IMG/VR virus record: IMGVR_UViG_3300038701_000886
Location: 1 to 36,206 of that record
Strand: one strand, 5' to 3'
Source of the DNA: a virus
DNA: 36,206 nt
In this document: positions 3,295 through 36,206 of the stretch, one piece after another
How positions within the stretch are numbered: position 1 is the stretch's first letter
Layout: each line of letters begins with the position of its first letter
Position numbers and translations under genes: made by a program
The notes under the pieces: generated by a model
What the model was told of the DNA's origin: nothing
Database searches by the model: none
What the model saw: only the letters and a program-made list of their open reading frames with translations

Positions 3295-4203
3295 ATGATC
3301 ATAGAAAAGGCAGGCATTTACGATATAGACGAAGAAGAATATCACGCTGATCCGGTTCCGGCCGGGTCGCTATCTTCAAGCGGTGCAAAACTTATATGCA
3401 ATCAAACCCTGAAGCATTTCAGGTATCAGCAAGACAACCCAAACAAATCAACCCCGGCGCTTAATTTCGGTTCCGCTGCACATATGAAACTACTGGAGGC
3501 CAAAAGGTTCCGTGAAACATACTATGTGTTACAGGAAGGCTTCTCATGGACCCAGACAAAGAATCAAAAAGAATGGCATGACCAAGCAAATCTGGCTCTG
3601 AAAACCGGGAAAAAGCTATTAACATATTCAGATAATGAAAAGATTGCCGGCATGATGGAAAGCATGTCGGACCACAAAGAAGCTCTATCAAAGTTTGTAA
3701 CCGCACCTAAAGAGCAAAGCGGTTTCTGGTTTGATAAAACATTCAAGATATGGCGGCGTATGCGCCTTGACTGGCAACCGTTAAGCGGTCGGGTGTTTAT
3801 GGACTACAAAACCATATCAGCGCTTGATGACAACACCATAAACAAGTCCATGTATAATTTTGGATGGTATCAACAGGCAGCATGGTATCTGGACGGTATT
3901 AAGTCTTTAGGGCTTCACGATCAGCCACGGTTTGTTTTCCTTCTTCAGGAAAAGACACCGCCATACGACATTGTAATCCGTGAGCTTGATATGCAGGCAA
4001 TCGGCTTTGGACGCCTTAGAAACGCCAAGGCAATGGATTTGTTTGCTGAGGCACAAGAAACAGGTGAATGGCCTGGTTACCCATTAGAGCCAAGAATTGC
4101 CCATCTTCCGAGGTTTGGTGAAATATCACTGGAAGAAGAAAAAGAAGCAGGGGAAATGGCATTAACATACAGAATGCAAGCCCCACATTTTGAGGAAAAA
4201 TAA
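3295..4203 (+). CDS. RecE-like PD-(D/E)XK exonuclease (DUF3799/YqaJ type)
   Basis: A 302-aa protein likely to be the 5'-3' dsDNA exonuclease of a phage recombination pair. It makes 3' overhangs for the annealing protein encoded next. Seen: AGSLSSSGAK at 23-32, G-S-A-A-H near H63, D159 in RMRLDW, D170-Y-K172 in FMDYKT (the D-x-K of PD-(D/E)XK), and YQQAAWY at 192-198 (the Q-x-x-x-Y motif of RecB/YqaJ nucleases). Together these are the full set of catalytic motifs. The start ATG 3295 gives the usual N-terminus; an earlier in-frame start at 3229 overlaps the upstream gene. Its stop overlaps the next ATG (TAATG). Confidence 0.88.
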   Translation: MIIEKAGIYDIDEEEYHADPVPAGSLSSSGAKLICNQTLKHFRYQQDNPNKSTPALNFGSAAHMKLLEAKRFRETYYVLQEGFSWTQTKNQKEWHDQANLALKTGKKLLTYSDNEKIAGMMESMSDHKEALSKFVTAPKEQSGFWFDKTFKIWRRMRLDWQPLSGRVFMDYKTISALDDNTINKSMYNFGWYQQAAWYLDGIKSLGLHDQPRFVFLLQEKTPPYDIVIRELDMQAIGFGRLRNAKAMDLFAEAQETGEWPGYPLEPRIAHLPRFGEISLEEEKEAGEMALTYRMQAPHFEEK

Positions 4204-5045
4204 TGACCAACGATTTAGCATTAATAAAGGCAAAAGCCGAAATATCAGCCATTATTCCAACCGACCTAAGTCAGATTGAAAGGGTTGCGTCTCTTGTTGC
4301 GAACTCAGGGCTTGCACCGAAAGGGTTGCAAAGACCCGAGCAAATAGCGATTGCCATGATGCAGGGCATGGAAGTTGGTTTGAAGCCAATGCAGTCGCTT
4401 AAGAGTATTGCAGTCATTAATGGGCGCCCCTGTATATGGGGGGATGGTGCCATGTCTTTGGTGAGGGCTTCTGGATTATGCAAGAGACTTGAAGAAAGAA
4501 TTGAGGGGCAGGGTGATGATTTAACCGCGGTCTGCATAACCGAACGCACCGACGCTGAAGGATTGATTAAACGTACTTTTTCGGTTTCTCAGGCTAAGCA
4601 AGCTAATCTCTGGGGAAAGAGTGGGCCATGGACACAATATCCAGAGCGAATGCTGGCAATGCGGGCGCGTGGTTTTGCTATTCGAGATGCATTTGCGGAC
4701 GTTCTTTCGGGCATGCAGATAGCAGAAGAGGTTCGAGACTGTCCCGAAGAGCATCAGGAACCAGAACAACAGCCAGTGACGCTTGATGAACTGAAACAAG
4801 AACCCGAAACACCAGAAGAGGAAAGTCAGGACATTGACGACGCTGAAATCGTTACTGTGCAGCCACTAGACAGAACTGAGGTTATGGCATTGCTGATCGA
4901 ATTTGATGAAGCACAAGACGAAGATGAATTAACTGATTTGCTTGCTGAAAATCGAGCAAGAATTGATGCGATGGAAAATGGATCGCACAAAAACACACTA
5001 AGACAGAAGTACAAAAACAAACTGATAGAATTGAAAGGTGAATAA
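4203..5045 (+). CDS. recT: RecT-like single-strand annealing protein
   Basis: A 280-aa protein. RecT-type proteins coat the exonuclease-made overhangs and anneal them to complementary strands. The core (about residues 25-180) contains PEQIAIAMMQGMEVGLKPM, QSLKSIAVINGRPCIWGDG and, near 148-170, YPERMLAMRARGFAIRDAFAD, the signature regions of phage RecT relatives. After residue ~185 there is an acidic Glu/Pro/Gln-rich linker and then a small helical domain. It is coupled to the exonuclease gene by TAATG overlap. A truncated second copy of the core end is found at 5942-6373. Confidence 0.88.
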   Translation: MTNDLALIKAKAEISAIIPTDLSQIERVASLVANSGLAPKGLQRPEQIAIAMMQGMEVGLKPMQSLKSIAVINGRPCIWGDGAMSLVRASGLCKRLEERIEGQGDDLTAVCITERTDAEGLIKRTFSVSQAKQANLWGKSGPWTQYPERMLAMRARGFAIRDAFADVLSGMQIAEEVRDCPEEHQEPEQQPVTLDELKQEPETPEEESQDIDDAEIVTVQPLDRTEVMALLIEFDEAQDEDELTDLLAENRARIDAMENGSHKNTLRQKYKNKLIELKGE

Positions 5046-5514: not shown

Positions 5515-5810
5515 TGGCTGCTTACTTTCGGCCTGCACAAGCTGCTGCAAAAGCCCAAACTCTTCAACAATATCAACGAGCACTAAGGCAAAAAGATGAA
5601 ATGCACGACCTGCAACAACAAAGGCTTTTACGACACGCAATAAAAAAAGGTCAGGAAATTGAATATGACATTGAAAATGACCAATATGTTTTAACATGCG
5701 ATTATGTAAAACCTGTCAAAGGGTTTTTTGAGGACAAAGAAACAGAAGTTTTACACGATCTTCAAAAAGAAACTGAAGATTGGCTTAAAGATGTAGAAAT
5801 AGGTGAATAA
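5514..5810 (+). CDS. hypothetical protein
   Basis: A 98-aa protein whose ATG overlaps the previous stop (TGATG). The N-terminal half is Gln/Ala/Arg-rich and helical (AAAKAQTLQQYQRALRQKDE), followed by a beta-like segment (EIEYDIENDQYVLTCDYVKP) and an acidic helical tail. No known motif. It is expressed between the coiled-coil and the truncated regulator genes. Confidence 0.65.
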   Translation: MAAYFRPAQAAAKAQTLQQYQRALRQKDEMHDLQQQRLLRHAIKKGQEIEYDIENDQYVLTCDYVKPVKGFFEDKETEVLHDLQKETEDWLKDVEIGE

Positions 5811-5811
5811 C

Positions 5812-5958
5812 ATGAGTGTTGATGCAAAAAATTATGACATAGCAGTTGCAAACAGAATTAAGAATTTGCGTAAGTTTAGAGGAATTTCTCAAAAAAAGCT
5901 TGGGGATCATATTGGCGTAAGCTTTGCACAGGTACAAAAATATGAAAAAGCATCCTAA
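5812..5958 (+). pseudogene. truncated Xre-family regulator
   Basis: A 48-aa ORF starting at ATG 5812 behind AGGTG. It aligns along its whole length with the intact Xre protein at 7044-7403 (NYDIAVANRIKNLRKFRGIS against NYNIAVGKVIRRLRNIKGLS, and QVQKYEKAS against QIQKYERAS). It stops at TAA 5956, just where the paralogue continues into helices 4-5 of the HTH fold (NRVSIGVLYKIADCL). The DNA that follows belongs to a recT copy, so this gene was cut by a deletion or recombination event. The remaining piece contains helices 1-3 only and is probably non-functional. Confidence 0.8.
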
Positions 5959-6373
5959 ACGTATGTTGCAAATGAGAGCCCGTGCTTTCTGCCTGCGTGA
6001 TGCATATGCTGACGTTCTCAAGGGCTTCAAGGTTATGGAAGAGGTTCAGGAATACACAAACATGGGGCCTGATTACGCCATTGATGTAACACCCCGGCCG
6101 GAACCAACACCTGAACCGGAAGTTGAACATGAAGAATTTGGCTTGATATATGACTGCGAAGGTAACTCTGTTGAACTGATGCAAACACCATTAGAGTGGT
6201 CATCAAAAGCTCAAGAGATACTAACAAACGCAAACGAGGTGGATATATCTAATTTCTGCGATCACAATGGTGATCAGTTATACGAAATTCAGCAGAAACA
6301 CCCTGAAATATACTCAAAAATTTCACCTGTTTTCGACGTCGAAGAAGATAACCAGAACACTTTAGACGTCTAA
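5942..6373 (+). pseudogene. 5'-truncated second recT copy
   Basis: Open frame of 143 codons from ATG 5942, without a ribosome-binding site. Its start, HPKRMLQMRARAFCLRDAYA, matches the middle of the intact RecT (YPERMLAMRARGFAIRDAFA). The segment DVLKGFKVMEEVQEY corresponds to DVLSGMQIAEEVRDC there. A Pro/Glu linker and an acidic C-terminal domain follow. The N-terminal ~150 residues, including the GLKPMQSL..ING region, are missing. The frame is uninterrupted after the junction, suggesting a fairly recent event or continued translation. Confidence 0.75.
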
Positions 6374-7418: not shown

Positions 7419-7802
7419 ATGAATATTGATGATATGAAATACGGTGATATTAAAAAAATCGCTCAAATCTTCAACCAGCAAGAAAATGAACAGACTTTTA
7501 ACAATGAAATGATTGGAGAGTATGTAATCGTTCGTTGTCGTGATGCGGGTGTTCATGCTGGGTTTTTGAAATCACATAAAGGACGTGAATGTATTTTGCA
7601 GGAAGCCCGGCGCCTTTGGTACTGGAAGCCTGAAGATGGAGCAAAGTTTTTGTCTGGTGTCGCCAATCAAGGATTGCATAAAGACAGCAAAATCTCTGAG
7701 CCGGTTGAAAAAATTCATCTAACAGAAAATTGTGAAATTATTTCCTGCACTAACAAAGCCATGGAATCTATTTCTAAAATGAAAGCCAGTTCAAATGAGT
7801 AA
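7419..7802 (+). CDS. DUF6948-like phage protein
   Basis: A 127-aa protein, ATG 7419 behind AAGGAAGG. Its middle, GEYVIVRCRDAGVHAGFL followed by EARRLWYWKPEDGAKFLSGV, and its end, V-E-K-I-H-L-T-E...E-I-I-S-C-T-N-K-A, follow the pattern I remember for the small phage family DUF6948 (YVIVR...GVHAG, A.R.WYW, I.LTE..EII.CT..A). Function unknown. It overlaps the Gly-X repeat gene through ATGAGTAA. Confidence 0.8.
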   Translation: MNIDDMKYGDIKKIAQIFNQQENEQTFNNEMIGEYVIVRCRDAGVHAGFLKSHKGRECILQEARRLWYWKPEDGAKFLSGVANQGLHKDSKISEPVEKIHLTENCEIISCTNKAMESISKMKASSNE

Positions 7803-8037
7803 CGTTCAAGAAAAAGAGTTTGGCTCTGGCGATGGCTCTGGCTATGGCTCTGGCTATGGCGATGGCGATGGCGATGGCTATGGCTCTGGCTCTGGCTATG
7901 GCTATGGCTATGGCGATGGCTATGGCTCTGGCTCTGGCTCTGGCGATGGCGATGGCTCTGGCTCTGGCTCTGGCTATGGCTATGGCGATGGCTATGGCTC
8001 TGGCTCTGGCTCTGGCGATGGCTCTGGCTCTGGCTAA
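7795..8037 (+). CDS. Gly-(Ser/Asp/Tyr) dipeptide-repeat protein
   Basis: An 80-aa ORF starting at ATG 7795, overlapping the previous stop. After nine ordinary residues (MSNVQEKEF) it is 35 consecutive Gly-X dipeptides ending in Gly, with X only Ser, Asp or Tyr. All Gly codons are GGC and all X codons are TCT, GAT or TAT. It is the last gene before the operon terminator. Gly/Tyr/Ser sequences of this kind are disordered and can be sticky or elastic; no function is known to me. Other frames and the opposite strand are also open across the repeat, but this frame has the translational coupling and the natural stop. Confidence 0.65.
   Translation: MSNVQEKEFGSGDGSGYGSGYGDGDGDGYGSGSGYGYGYGDGYGSGSGSGDGDGSGSGSGYGYGDGYGSGSGSGDGSGSG
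7822..8034 (+). repeat. GGC-NNT microsatellite-like repeat
   Basis: 213 bp made of alternating GGC and TCT/GAT/TAT codons, so a 6-bp periodicity with an invariant GGC and an invariant T at every sixth base. Replication slippage in 6-bp steps would keep the frame. Confidence 0.95.
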
Positions 8038-27776: not shown

Positions 27777-28203
27777 TTGGTAAACCCCTTGAGGTATCGC
27801 TGATTTCTTTCATAAGATCGTCAAGTGTGTTGACATCGTGCTGATGCACCTCGCGCCATTCTTCTGGTCTACGGCTCATTAACCAGAACTTTTGGGCGCC
27901 AATATCAGGCAATATATCTTCTTCGTAATGATGCTCAATGACTGTACCGTCTTTGCTATTGTAAAACAGCTTGACTTTTTTAGCGGTATATCCAACAGCA
28001 CGCTGGAACAGACTGGTTGCAACACGGTTATCAAGGTCCTGTCTTGACCTCTCAATGCCTTCGTTAAATTCTGGATACTTCTCTTTCCAGCGCCAGATAG
28101 TTGCCTGATTAACGCCAAAAGCCACCGACAAAATATTGTCGGTGGCTCCAAGCTTGGCCAGTTTCTCGGCCTCTTTAACGTATTCTTTCTTGTACTTTGT
28201 CAT
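27727..28203 (-). CDS. terS: terminase small subunit
   Basis: A 158-aa protein. The N-terminal HTH (AEKLAKLGATDNILSVAFGV, then NQATIWRWKEKYPEFNEGIE; residues ~12-50) recognises the packaging site. Then VATSLFQRAVGYTAKKVKLF and FWLMSRRPEEWREVHQHDV form the oligomerisation part, as in the HTH-type small terminases (Q-R-A-V-G-Y...F-W-L...P-x-x-W-R). It lies directly upstream of terL. Confidence 0.9.
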   Translation of the reverse strand: MTKYKKEYVKEAEKLAKLGATDNILSVAFGVNQATIWRWKEKYPEFNEGIERSRQDLDNRVATSLFQRAVGYTAKKVKLFYNSKDGTVIEHHYEEDILPDIGAQKFWLMSRRPEEWREVHQHDVNTLDDLMKEISDTSRGLPSERGNEPKAKSGNQKK

Positions 28204-28226
28204 ACGGTAATATTAATAGGTTTTGG

Positions 28227-28698: not shown

Positions 28699-31470
28699 TT
28701 ATGTTGGTGGGTCGCTTGGTGCGTCAGTAAGTGGACCGTTCTCAACAGCAAGGTTGCCATTGTTAGGCGCACGGTTATTACCAAAGTCAGCAGCATTGTT
28801 AGATAGATACAACTGAGGCGCAGTTGATAGCGGTGTTGTGCCATCAGAGCCAAGGCTGACGACGCCGCCCGTTGCACTGATAAATTTCCGCCTGTCTGCT
28901 ACTGTATCCATGTCGATCGCCTCTGCAAGGTTAAGATAAACATCAGCTAACCACATTTCCTGATTGTTACCGTTACCCGCCGCGCTGGTTGAGTTGATGA
29001 ACAACTGTGTCAGGTTACCAGGCATTGTACCATTCGTTGTCACTGTGCGCCCACTGTAGGTGATCTCAACATCGTTAATGAAATGGCGAGCCGTTCCAGT
29101 TGTCGTGTCGATGGTGATCAAGTGATGCAGCCATGTGTTAACAGGGTTAAATGTCGGGTTCGATGGGAAGCGCCAGAAGGCAATATTTGCTCCGGTGTTG
29201 TCCCGCATTGTCACAATCATTCTGCTTGAGCTTGACCGTGCAATTGTAAAGCGCTCATTACCTGAACTGTCTTCAAGGGTAAGCAACCTAGTATTAGCGT
29301 TCCATGCTGTCCGCGTATTCATCCAGAATGACATAGTCAGTTGCTGAGTAGAAGGCGTAGAGCCAAGGCTTGTGGTCTGAAGGAATGCCGTTGCCGGGAA
29401 TGCAACACCCTGCCCCGGCGTGAATGGTGGCGGAACAAAGGCAAAGTCCTGAACCTGCGCACCCGTTGGCACTGTTGATGCTGTGAACTCACGACCATTA
29501 ATGTCAGACAATAAAGGTACATCAATCAGGGCAATTGTCGGGCTGGCTGCGTTCCATTCGGTTTCAAACGCGGTCTTAAAGGCCTGCAACCTTGCGCTTG
29601 GGTCAGCAGTCAGAATACCAAACTCAGAGTTCTGTACAGGTGTAAAGTCTCCATTGGCAGGGTCAGTGTAGATATCAGTTGCGCTTACAACTGTGTCATT
29701 CGTTCCAAAGCTGATCGGTGACCGCAGGAATATGTTATCAATCTGATCACCCACGTTCGCTGCCGCAGTATTGGTATTAATACCGCCGCCACCGATCACA
29801 TTGCCTCTAACATGAATTAGCATGTCATCATCTGTTGCGGGCTCACCAAGAAACATGTTCGCACTATTCGTCAAGTCACTTGGTAAAGGCAACAAAGTGT
29901 TGTTGATAGCCTGTACAACGCCAAGCGATCCAGCCGGGTTATTATATCCTGTCTGCCCCGTGATAACTGGAGGCGCAGGCACTCGGTCAATTTCACCACC
30001 TCGCTGCTGTGATGCGATAGTACGACCGCTTGATGGGTCACGGTCATTTCCAGAAAACTCGTTAAATTCCCAGCTAATGTCTGACGCATCCTGATACGTA
30101 TGGAAACCGTTTACATTTACTTCCTTGTTTGAACGATTTCTAATCATCCTTGAACCAGTGAAGAAGTTCATCGCGTTTGAATGCGTCTCGAATGAACAGT
30201 TTTCGATCAGGTTGTATCCGTTAAACATAAACTCTGCCCATCCCTGGGTAGGTGGTGTTGTTCTGCTGAATGGTGCCGACGTAACCCCGCCGAATGACAG
30301 TATAGGCTGTCTCTCAATGCGCGTTATATGGTTATTAAACACCTGAACACGCCGTGAAGACAGGTTCTGGATACCCCGACCACCAATAGAGCGATCAAGG
30401 TCATTGTAGCGGACTAAAACGTCTTCCATGCCATCGATCTGTATCATTGGATTGTTTGACGGTCCGTAGCAGTTACCCATCACGTTCTGGGTAATGAGGT
30501 TATTGCTTCGGTTAATGCGGTCGGCAACGGGAATGGCACTTGTGCTTGAGCGCGAGAATATGCTGCGGGTTTGATCAAGCTCAAGGCCTCTGATGGTAAC
30601 GTCACGCATGTTGTTTGTGTCAAAGATGCGCGGCCGTGCAATATAGGTTATCTCACCTGGTGCACCGTCGTTAGAGCGCACATAAAGCGTAACTGTAGAC
30701 CCGCTGATGGTATAGCCCCACTGTCCGTCGGTTAGGGCAGGTAGAATGTTTCTAAGGGCAAAGCGTGCGCGGTTGGTATTGTCTTCAACGGTAAAGCCAT
30801 CAGGGTTACTGATTGTGACCGTATTTGTACCGCTGTTAAACGAAGATATAGCTACGCCTCTGGTTCGGTTGTCAGTGTAGGTAATCAACAGTTCAGCATT
30901 CTGTAGCTGCGCCTCAGTGTAGGCTGAGAACTCAGTTGATGTATATGTGCTGATTGTATCACCAATAACCGTTGTGGTGTCTGTTGCACCGTTCAGGGCT
31001 GTGGCTGTATGCCATGTTGATATTGTGAAGTTAAAATCATCAATGAACGGTGATGATGCACGGTCAAAACATAGTACCAGCGGGTTGCCGTCTTCCTGAA
31101 GGCCAAGGTGCTCAGGGTCAATGCCAGTTGGCAGGGTAATGTCTGTCTTGTAAATCTGGGCAAAGTTCGCACCGACTGTTGGCTGATCAGTGCTGGTACA
31201 CTGGGTAAATCCAGTTGCAACTTCACCGCCAGATAACTTGGCCCGTCCAGTCCCGCGTGTAGTGATTTCTAAATTGGACCAAACACGGCCTGTAAAGTTT
31301 ACCTCTTCACGGTAGGTTTGTGCTGGGTCAACAACAACTGTGTATTCTCTGCTTCCGTCATTGACAGCATTAATCGCTGTAATAGCTTCTTGAATGGTCT
31401 GCATAGCCGTCTCAGGCGTCAAACCGTTGCCACTTGATGGCATACCACCATCAACATAGTAATCACCCAC
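28699..31470 (-). CDS. tailspike: right-handed beta-helix plus LamG-like domain
   Basis: At least 923 aa (from GTG 31470). The N-terminal DYYVDGGMPSSGNGLTPETA and MQTIQEAITAINAVND, then repeated short strands with Asn ladders (residues ~250-480: TIRGLELDQTRSIFS, LITQNVMGN, VQVFNNHITRIERQP), are typical of pectate-lyase-like beta-helix spikes that bind or cut surface polysaccharide. The last ~230 residues form a concanavalin/LamG-like domain (LTMSFWMNTRTAWN; NTWLHHLITIDTTTGTARHF; LADVYLNLAEA). The GTG has no ribosome-binding site, and the frame stays open for 27 codons upstream to 31551, so the true start is probably elsewhere (see 31551-31557). Confidence 0.85.
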   Translation of the reverse strand: MGDYYVDGGMPSSGNGLTPETAMQTIQEAITAINAVNDGSREYTVVVDPAQTYREEVNFTGRVWSNLEITTRGTGRAKLSGGEVATGFTQCTSTDQPTVGANFAQIYKTDITLPTGIDPEHLGLQEDGNPLVLCFDRASSPFIDDFNFTISTWHTATALNGATDTTTVIGDTISTYTSTEFSAYTEAQLQNAELLITYTDNRTRGVAISSFNSGTNTVTISNPDGFTVEDNTNRARFALRNILPALTDGQWGYTISGSTVTLYVRSNDGAPGEITYIARPRIFDTNNMRDVTIRGLELDQTRSIFSRSSTSAIPVADRINRSNNLITQNVMGNCYGPSNNPMIQIDGMEDVLVRYNDLDRSIGGRGIQNLSSRRVQVFNNHITRIERQPILSFGGVTSAPFSRTTPPTQGWAEFMFNGYNLIENCSFETHSNAMNFFTGSRMIRNRSNKEVNVNGFHTYQDASDISWEFNEFSGNDRDPSSGRTIASQQRGGEIDRVPAPPVITGQTGYNNPAGSLGVVQAINNTLLPLPSDLTNSANMFLGEPATDDDMLIHVRGNVIGGGGINTNTAAANVGDQIDNIFLRSPISFGTNDTVVSATDIYTDPANGDFTPVQNSEFGILTADPSARLQAFKTAFETEWNAASPTIALIDVPLLSDINGREFTASTVPTGAQVQDFAFVPPPFTPGQGVAFPATAFLQTTSLGSTPSTQQLTMSFWMNTRTAWNANTRLLTLEDSSGNERFTIARSSSSRMIVTMRDNTGANIAFWRFPSNPTFNPVNTWLHHLITIDTTTGTARHFINDVEITYSGRTVTTNGTMPGNLTQLFINSTSAAGNGNNQEMWLADVYLNLAEAIDMDTVADRRKFISATGGVVSLGSDGTTPLSTAPQLYLSNNAADFGNNRAPNNGNLAVENGPLTDAPSDPPT

Positions 31471-31547
31471 CGTCGGGCCAGTAAATACGCTATCAGCACC
31501 TCTTTGTTGTGAAGGCTGTACAGTATTACCTCTTCGACGGCGGGCTC

Positions 31548-31817
31548 TTAAAAATTTCCTTCTTGTACTCCAGCATCAGCGGCATGGTCATCGCGTCGAC
31601 GAATGCCAAATATAGCAGTGGTGCAGTCAATAATTACGCTGTCATATTCCCTGATTGCAGCATTGTCATTGTACGTAACATCGCTTTGCCCAATGCACAA
31701 AGGCTGTGATCCTGCTGTAATCCTCAAGACACGACTTGAAGCACCACCAGTAGCGGCTCCAATGATCTGAACGGCGGTTCCGCCAACTTGTGTAACGCTA
31801 TGGTTTTCTAAAGACAT
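31548..31817 (-). CDS. 89-aa virion protein, possible N-terminal domain of the tailspike
   Basis: From ATG 31817 behind AAGGAA. Small beta-type protein (SVTQVGGTAVQIIGAATGGA; RVLRITAGSQPLCIGQSDVT) like the short phage proteins that attach to the particle or form a spike's head-binding part. It is the first gene of the late operon. It ends N-F-stop on GGA AAT TTT TAA, and the tailspike frame is open from the same point in the -1 frame. The fused product would be 1039 aa. Confidence 0.7.
   Translation of the reverse strand: MSLENHSVTQVGGTAVQIIGAATGGASSRVLRITAGSQPLCIGQSDVTYNDNAAIREYDSVIIDCTTAIFGIRRRDDHAADAGVQEGNF
31551..31557 (-). promoter_or_regulatory. candidate -1 ribosomal frameshift site A_AAT_TTT
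   Basis: In the frame of the 89-aa gene the DNA reads GGA-AAT-TTT-TAA. The heptamer A AAT TTT follows the X-XXY-YYZ rule for -1 slippage and touches the stop codon. After slippage the next codons (TTA AGA GCC CGC) enter the open tailspike frame: L-R-A-R-R-R-R-G-N-T-V-Q-P-S-Q-Q. A missing T in a run of six would look the same. Confidence 0.5.
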
Positions 31818-33857: not shown

Positions 33858-34163
33858 TTAAAACTCGTTTTCGATCAGCTTCTTCAAGAAATTACGTAAT
33901 TGACGATATCTGAAGCTAGAGTTGTAACAATAATCTACCAAGTCCTTCACGGTCGGCCTGCGGTGCGAATACGGCGATTTTGTCAGCCACTTTACCGCTG
34001 CGGCATCGACCACGTACGACGGGTATGCCTTCACCGCCTCAACGTAATCCTTGGCGACCTGCTCGGCGATAAACAAATCCTGCTCCTGGCGTGGATAGTG
34101 CGCAAGCAGTGCTGCGATGCGTGCAGCCTTGATGCCGTGCTCGTTCTCAGTCTCCAAACACAT
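33858..34163 (-). CDS. putative replication accessory protein
   Basis: A 101-aa protein from ATG 34163, overlapping the initiator stop by 17 bases; AGGTG is close upstream. The longer frame to 34502 lies wholly over the initiator coding region and is rejected. The C-terminal half (YPSYVVDAAAVKWLTKSPYS, then R-R-P-T-V-K-D-L-V-D-Y-C) has the pattern P-x-x-V-x-x-A-x-x-x-W-x-x-x-S-x-x-x-P-x-x-x-E/D-L that I remember from small proteins in phage replication modules. Its position behind the initiator suggests a helicase-loader-like or accessory role (inference). Confidence 0.65.
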   Translation of the reverse strand: MCLETENEHGIKAARIAALLAHYPRQEQDLFIAEQVAKDYVEAVKAYPSYVVDAAAVKWLTKSPYSHRRPTVKDLVDYCYNSSFRYRQLRNFLKKLIENEF

Positions 34164-35013
34164 CAACACCTGGCGCCCCCAAGTCTTGCAGCCCAGTGGC
34201 AACCTTTTCGAATGCCTGAGTTTGTTGTACAGCCCCTTGGCTTGGGCCTCTTGCTTGGCCTGTCCGTGAAAATCCGGAAACGTCTGCATATTTTCGACAC
34301 CAGTTGCGGAAAGTTGCATTCCAATCTCGTTTTCTAGCGTTTGCACCGGATGCTGACTTCCAGTAGTCGATAAACTTTTCTTGCTCGCTTCTGATTTCGT
34401 CGGCCGAGATTTTGGTGCACTCCGCGATGCCTCGAGCAAGCTCTGCACTGCAGCGCCAAGTGTTGGGGATGAACTGCCCTTGTTTGGTTGGTTGGTATTC
34501 ATCGCTTTCCTCCAAGGTTAAAAGTTCGCCCTGATTACTTTTTTTGGATAATAATTTATTATTATCTTTTTTTATATATGGTTCTGGTTCTGGTTTCCGC
34601 GCGTGTGTCGTCGGTTTCCGGTCGGTTTCCGGTCGGTTTCCGGTCGGTTTCCGAGGGGTCGTTTTGTTTGTTTTCAATGACTTGCTGGCTAGCTCTTTTT
34701 TTTTGCCGTTTTTTCGGTTAAAAATTTTGTCATTTATTTTTTCAAATTCTTTCATTTGCCTACGCTGAAAAATACGCTTGTTTTTGCGCGTGAAAAACTC
34801 ATTAATGATGATTAAAACGATGTCCTGATATTGCTGTTCTGACACCCTCAAATGACGTCGTAACCATCTCTCATCATCTGGAATTGAGCACCCTGGTGAG
34901 CGCCAGCAAAGCCGTAAAAGGCGATTATAAACGCCGTCCTCTTCAAGCGTTAAATGCGCTGTTGCGGCCTCGTAATCGTCAACATAAAGCGGCATTGATG
35001 GCAGGCTAGTCAT
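34147..35013 (-). CDS. replication initiator, DUF1376 family
   Basis: A 288-aa protein. Residues ~7-75 (MPLYVDDYEAATAHLTLEED, then GVYNRLLRLCWRSPGCSIPD, DERWLRRHLRVSE) are the DUF1376/YdaU N-terminal domain of phage replication proteins. A Lys/Pro/Arg-rich linker (about 95-170) follows. The C-terminal part (AECTKISADEIRSEQEKFID, then YWKSASGANARKRDWNATFR and NWCRK) resembles the DnaT/primosomal-type DNA-binding end. Start ATG 35013 has AGAGGG eight bases upstream and overlaps the previous stop (ATGA). It presumably binds the iterons at 34610-34653 in its own gene, as lambda O does. Confidence 0.85.
   Translation of the reverse strand: MTSLPSMPLYVDDYEAATAHLTLEEDGVYNRLLRLCWRSPGCSIPDDERWLRRHLRVSEQQYQDIVLIIINEFFTRKNKRIFQRRQMKEFEKINDKIFNRKNGKKKELASKSLKTNKTTPRKPTGNRPETDRKPTTHARKPEPEPYIKKDNNKLLSKKSNQGELLTLEESDEYQPTKQGQFIPNTWRCSAELARGIAECTKISADEIRSEQEKFIDYWKSASGANARKRDWNATFRNWCRKYADVSGFSRTGQARGPSQGAVQQTQAFEKVATGLQDLGAPGVDVFGD
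34538..34579. other. A/T-rich stretch, candidate DNA-unwinding element
   Basis: About 42 bases almost wholly A/T (runs of T7, ATAATAATTTATTATTATC, T7, ATATATG), located 30 bases from the iterons and inside the initiator coding sequence. Confidence 0.45.
34610..34653. repeat. four perfect 11-bp iterons, candidate replication origin
   Basis: GTCGGTTTCCG repeated four times head to tail without a mismatch (34610, 34621, 34632, 34643). The period of 11 is not a multiple of three, so the initiator frame reads a different peptide in each copy (RKPTGNRPETDRKPTT). The repeat is therefore kept at DNA level, not protein level. One unit is about one helical turn, so bound proteins would line up on one face. 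Confidence 0.8.
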
Positions 35014-35240
35014 GATCGCGTCCCTCTGCTTGTCATGTATTGGCTGTGCGCTTTTAACCTGCTGAAAACTTCCTCGTAACTTTCTGGGCAAATGCCGGAA
35101 AATCCGCGTATTCTGTCGATATAACCAAGGGTATAATCAGCATGATATTGTATGCTCTCATCAGTCCAGGGGTATGCGCGTAATAAGGCAAACAAATCAG
35201 ATTTAATTCTCGGTTCAACTGTTGGTCTTCTTCGCATCAT
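35010..35240 (-). CDS. hypothetical early protein, paralogue of 35577-35320
   Basis: A 76-aa protein from ATG 35240 directly after the stop of the 28-aa ORF (TGAATGATG). The core D-L-F-A-L-L-R-A-Y-P-W-T...Y-T-L-G-Y-I-D...S-Y-E-E-V-F-S-R-L-K-A aligns with E-L-L-Y-L-L-N-S-Y-P-W-T...Y-L-S-G-Y-I-E...S-Y-H-E-I-F-V-R-L-C-A in the gene two places upstream. Charged and helical. Function unknown; it precedes the initiator gene with an ATGA overlap. Confidence 0.72.
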   Translation of the reverse strand: MMRRRPTVEPRIKSDLFALLRAYPWTDESIQYHADYTLGYIDRIRGFSGICPESYEEVFSRLKAHSQYMTSRGTRS

Positions 35241-35743: not shown

Positions 35744-36206
35744 AGCTCTCTGTCTTTGGTATCGCCTATAGAAAATTGATCGTTGGCTTTCAGCTTCCGC
35801 CACTCTGTAAATGTTTTGGTCTCGCAACCTATGGTCATATGGTTATCAGTAATAGTAACCTCATATTTTAGACCAGTTATATTTATGGCTTCTGAACTGC
35901 ACACAGCATCGCCACGCACGACACCATCGCCACGCACGACACCTAGGTCACGCACGACACCTCGGTCACGCACGACACCTCGGTCACGCACGACACCTCG
36001 GTCACGCACGGCACCTCGGTCACGCACGACAGCATCGCCACGCACGACACCATGACCATACACGACACCATTGTCACGCACGACACCTCGGTCACGCACG
36101 ACACCATGACCACACACGACACCTAGGTCACGCACGACACCTCGGTCACGCACGACACCTCGGTCACGCACGACACCTCGGTCACGCACGGCACCTCGGT
36201 CACGCC
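35689..36206 (-). CDS. hexapeptide-repeat (YdcK-like) protein, C-terminal part, runs off the window
   Basis: Open from the right window end through ~17 hexapeptide units (R-D-R-G-V-V and variants CGHGVV, RDNGVV, YGHGVV, RGDAVV), then a unique C-terminal domain: INITGLKYEVTITDNHMTIG, C-E-T-K-T-F-T-E-W, and DRELWKHWKPLLTRF. The segment I-x-G-L-x-Y-x-V-T-I-T-D-N-H-x-x-I-G-C is, as I remember it, the standard C-terminal cap of YdcK-like proteins. An internal GTG at 36189 is only a codon of the repeat. Joining to the part at 444-1 gives a complete protein of about 330 residues with N cap, helix and C cap. Confidence 0.85.
   Translation of the reverse strand, partial: RDRGAVRDRGVVRDRGVVRDRGVVRDLGVVCGHGVVRDRGVVRDNGVVYGHGVVRGDAVVRDRGAVRDRGVVRDRGVVRDRGVVRDLGVVRGDGVVRGDAVCSSEAINITGLKYEVTITDNHMTIGCETKTFTEWRKLKANDQFSIGDTKDRELWKHWKPLLTRFIRLTRV
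35906..36206. repeat. 18-bp tandem repeat array, right part
   Basis: About 17 units of the same 18-bp repeat as at 1-243, same strand sense and phase. Segment 35971-36083 is identical to 38-150. Joined as a circle, the two arrays meet with an in-frame 3-base insertion (CCG) relative to the regular unit. Confidence 0.95.

Follow-up and report, generated by a model that had tools for sequence, protein, structure and literature searches.

In phages, frameshifting is a known route by which coat or tail tube proteins gain extra domains. In gene 10 of T7 and T3 (10A/10B), as in Ig-like coat extensions, translation from a single start produces a short structural protein and, in minor amounts, a longer version made by frameshifting (PMC5009743). 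In the lactococcal 936 phages (MTP-TpeX) and in the SPP1 tail tube, a repeated structural protein acquires a putative carbohydrate-binding module through a frameshift (PMC4759559). In E. coli dnaX and in IS911, the signal combines a Shine-Dalgarno (SD)-like motif ∼10–12 nt upstream, a slippery heptamer, a short spacer, and a stable (branched) hairpin (PMC4066793). In the groundnut rosette and Ethiopian tobacco bushy top umbraviruses, AAAUUUU lies next to a stop codon and is followed by a large bulged stem-loop, and a 5-nt spacer is typical of this group (PMC4737148). The phage locus analyzed here, at which an 89-aa gene (p89) meets the frame of a putative tailspike, resembles these systems in layout. 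We put at roughly 70% the probability that programmed −1 ribosomal frameshifting at this junction yields both p89 and a 1039-aa p89–tailspike fusion.

The window is the whole of IMG/VR virus record IMGVR_UViG_3300038701_000886, 36,206 bases long. Its portal is of the SU10 type (Pfam SU10_portal match), with a likeness to the portal of podovirus SU10. The same 18-bp tandem repeat (ACGACACC..GGTCACGC) lies at either end of the record (3–260 and 35913–36205), probably because a circular or permuted assembly was cut within a single array. Four perfect tandem 11-bp units (GTCGGTTTCCG) lie at 34610–34653, inside the minus-strand ORF 34147–35091; because 11 bp is not a multiple of 3, the peptide of this array runs through three repeat frames. 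On the plus strand, positions 5803–6373 hold a truncated XRE-type helix-turn-helix ORF and, after it, a fragment that matches RecT-like proteins over their C-terminal part alone. This region is read as the remnant of a deletion or recombination, and a longer RecT-like gene is present at 4203–5045.

The junction itself lies on the minus strand. The p89 gene occupies positions 31548–31817, from an ATG at 31817 preceded by a good ribosome-binding site, AAAGGAA (AAAGGAAC), to a TAA stop at 31550–31548, and it ends GGA AAT TTT TAA. Judged by codon usage trained on 13 minus-strand genes, p89 is coding all the way to its stop. The protein has no family, PDB, or phage match, and no homologue was found in phages, plasmids, IMG/VR, or GTDB contigs; AlphaFold returned no confident model (mean pLDDT 37.5). 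We propose that p89 serves as the N-terminal, virion-binding anchor of the fusion.

The putative tailspike ORF (28699–31470, minus strand) encodes 923 aa from a GTG, with a probable beta-helix enzyme domain and, as judged by inspecting its sequence only, what looks like a C-terminal LamG-like domain. Its frame is −1 relative to that of p89 and is open from AAA at 31557 (ORF boundary 31575) to 28699. The in-frame stretch that joins the junction to the spike ORF (31471–31557, minus strand; KFLRARRRRGNTVQPSQQRGADSVFTGPT) is free of ATG, GTG, TTG, CTG, ATT, ATC, and ATA codons, and GTG 31470 has no ribosome-binding site. The 27 codons above this GTG score as coding, at 0.145 per codon, on a scale where true frames reach 0.277 ± 0.156 (SD) and wrong frames about −0.24. 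The spike frame is coding from the heptamer onward, so that the coding signal changes frame at the junction without a gap; thus, these are not two ordinary adjacent genes. Joining the 89 aa of p89 to the 950 aa read from TTA onward gives 1039 aa. The first-pass annotation of this DNA had described the same layout, and its account of the meeting frames and their positions, of the GTG lacking a ribosome-binding site, of the open, protein-like, and startless 27 codons, and of the length of the −1 product proved correct throughout.

The sole relative found for the spike is a distant one, a Pseudorhodobacter plasmid protein with 25% (23–25%) identity, which is a hypothetical protein encoded among secretion/polysaccharide genes. 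There was no Pfam or PHROG match, and the AlphaFold model of the spike frame was unusable (pLDDT 32). The enzyme-like domain of the Pseudorhodobacter homologue aligns from the DYYVDGG point, which places GTG 31470 at the domain edge. The stretch upstream of the GTG would then be a linker to p89.

The two frames meet at the slippery heptamer A_AAT_TTT (31551–31557, minus strand), and the p89 stop TAA follows it directly. This is an X_XXZ_ZZN heptamer in the zero frame and within the overlap of both frames, as specified by Sharma et al. 2014, and the R_RR.U_UU.Y class is listed among shifty motifs in E. coli (PMC4066793). In frame, 0.34% of codons in the record (34/10135) carry an X_XXY_YYZ sequence (Y = A/T, Z not G), which gives a ∼3% chance of such a heptamer in the ∼9-codon overlap. 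Twelve nucleotides upstream of the heptamer lies an SD-like GGAG (31568–31571, minus strand). At this distance such motifs are known to stimulate −1 frameshifting, and it falls within the 6–17 nt that Sharma et al. 2014 applied (PMC4066793); such a motif accompanies 12.8% of random codon positions. An AGGA that abuts the heptamer was rejected as a −1 stimulator for being too close, whereas GGAG at 12 nt fits.

Downstream, a 5-nt spacer, UAAGA (31546–31550, minus strand), separates the heptamer from a candidate stimulatory hairpin (31465–31545, minus strand). Its basal stem comprises 11 bp (31545–31535 with 31465–31475), its inner stems are interrupted, and its apical loop has 8 nt. Sharma et al. 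2014 considered hairpins of 17–140 nt that start 4–10 nt after the motif, are G-C closed, and have a stability of at least 7.6 kcal/mol. The hairpin identified here spans 81 nt, starts 6 nt after the motif, and folds at −38.7 kcal/mol; its outermost pair is G-U, and the first C-G pair is reached at 7 nt, with 36.7 kcal/mol from there. Among the 49 in-frame X_XXZ_ZZN heptamers in the record, A_AAT_TTT has the strongest hairpin conforming to these rules, with the SD-like motif in addition, and none of 600 random codon positions matched the junction hairpin. Basal stem pairing probability was ∼0.99 in six of seven sequence contexts and 0.65 in the other. Rfam returned no match. A possible pseudoknot between the apical loop (CAACA) and UGUUG downstream was seen by eye and is not counted as evidence.

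Comparisons with randomized sequences also single out this fold. For the 102 nt from AGA 31548, an equally good fold arose in only 5 of 5000 synonymous sequences drawn to match the phage's codon usage (z = −3.45) and in no sequence among 2000 in which the existing codons were permuted synonymously (z = −5.4). A 113-nt fold gave z = −5.4 against dinucleotide shuffles; these values pertain to folded windows partly picked after the fact, and to a single sequence, which cannot prove a functional fold. The junction is the third-strongest GC-corrected fold locus in the record. The strongest RNA fold locus is a hexamer repeat array of ∼36 units at 7795–8037 (plus strand), which encodes a Gly-rich G[SDY] repeat protein and reads as ALAM/ARAI repeats in its other frames. 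The second-strongest GC-corrected locus (28066–28226, minus strand) covers the point where the small terminase gene starts, and it may regulate translation of that gene.

In layout, the signal appears dnaX/IS911-like, and it suggests the following sequence of events. Ribosomes would initiate at p89, and the majority would read GGA AAT TTT TAA and release the 89-aa protein. A minority, with AAT occupying the P site and TTT the A site, would pause at the hairpin. Pairing of GGAG with 16S rRNA would pull these paused ribosomes back, and a slip by one base to AAA TTT would let them continue with TTA AGA and on through the spike, giving the 1039-aa protein. The p89 domain would be a virion-binding structural domain made in excess, and in a mixed assembly the spike would be held through its p89 part, with the frameshift rate setting the number of p89 copies that bear the enzymatic spike. 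We advance only tentatively, and at somewhat less than even odds, the fuller proposal that p89 is a repeated virion protein, that the frameshifted p89–spike is the only spike made, and that the slippage rate meters spikes per particle.

The main alternative to programmed frameshifting is that p89 and the spike form an ordinary single gene of ∼1039 aa from which one base was lost near the T-run, by assembly error or real mutation. The first-pass annotation had itself warned that a lost T would mimic slippage. Such a loss would explain both the unbroken coding signal and the heptamer; since a T6 sequence would hold the same heptamer, the heptamer alone cannot decide between the two. On the other hand, an indel predicts neither a hairpin at 5-nt spacing nor the GGAG. 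The T5 run is short, and 51 longer or comparable runs inside genes (at least 6 A/T or at least 5 G/C) are intact, so this assembly does not generally drop bases from homopolymers. What keeps the indel explanation alive is a second startless −1 junction in the same record, after the portal gene (23736–23345, minus strand), where orfA ends ...QMITYGTM* and orfB reads ANPDDYVWDN...SSPNGKRWQLTIDNDGKLTTTEIT*. There, orfB has a strong coding signal and no start codon, and the junction lacks a slippery motif and folds only weakly. That break may be an indel, in which case the record may hold others. The SSPNGKRWQLTIDNDG motif of orfB resembles a short stretch in other phages.

Relatives of the phage were also sought. 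Portal and capsid alignments retrieved ∼130 related viral loci, one of them with 76% capsid identity, and none had p89 or this spike. At that place, the gene content differs in the nearest fuller relatives examined (L090, L102, L098, and their records), and a search for the junction DNA pattern that allowed T-run variants found no second assembly. The p89–spike junction was likewise not found in phages, plasmids, IMG/VR, or GTDB contigs, so that the comparison suggested by the first-pass annotation, with relatives having one fused gene or the same heptamer, found no such relative. According to the GeneTack authors, errors or indels explain most frame transitions that occur as singletons, with no relatives (PMC3711429). 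One related phage (L137 298–3247, at the start of contig G002) encodes, near the same place upstream of the terminase, a pair of proteins whose N-termini are secretion-signal-like; beta-helix-like sequence follows the first of them. Taken together, the earlier claim that slippage makes a short and a spike-linked form is supported but not proven: the hairpin at its 5-nt spacer, the GGAG, the codon-usage switch, and the GTG without a ribosome-binding site argue for it, and the relatives without the junction and the second frame break argue against it. On this balance, we regard the loss of a base as unlikely.

Two separate genes, with leaderless or coupled initiation of the spike at GTG 31470, are a very improbable arrangement. 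The position of this GTG exactly at the start of the conserved enzyme domain would suit such a start. However, besides lacking a ribosome-binding site, the GTG is buried in the 3′ arm of the hairpin, where 31470–31468 pair with 31540–31542; it is separated from the p89 stop by 77 nt; and the codons above it look coding. A spike begun there would also have no N-terminal attachment domain. GTG 31470 was therefore rejected as the true start, which leaves the spike without a usable start of its own. Finally, almost no weight can be given to transcriptional slippage at the A3T5 tract, which would add a base in some mRNAs and give the same fusion: homopolymer tracts can cause such slippage in bacteria, but the runs involved are usually longer than T5, and neither the hairpin nor the GGAG would be needed.

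If programmed frameshifting does operate here, a whole host-recognition/depolymerase spike would be made only as the frameshifted extension of a small protein, and spike copy number would be tied to the slippage rate. Gene callers that seek standard starts would report the spike from GTG 31470 and lose the anchor; similar cases may therefore hide in other phage genomes. Literature searches, beyond whose reach most subscription papers lay, found no frameshifted phage tailspike.

The differences from the known systems help to define this candidate. Relative to dnaX and IS911, the heptamer is A_AAT_TTT rather than A_AAA_AAG, the stop adjoins the heptamer, and the downstream product is a phage tailspike. 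The likeness to the umbraviruses, in which the signal belongs to the polymerase gene of a eukaryotic RNA virus, is one of layout only. The 936 and SPP1 events are +1 shifts (CCC.UAG in 936) in long-tailed phages, whereas here the shift would be −1 with a hairpin. In T7/T3 gene 10, the coat protein forms the body and carries a small extension, whereas here an 89-aa body would carry a 950-aa, enzyme-like spike extension. The unusual feature of the present case is that frameshifting would supply the entire spike.
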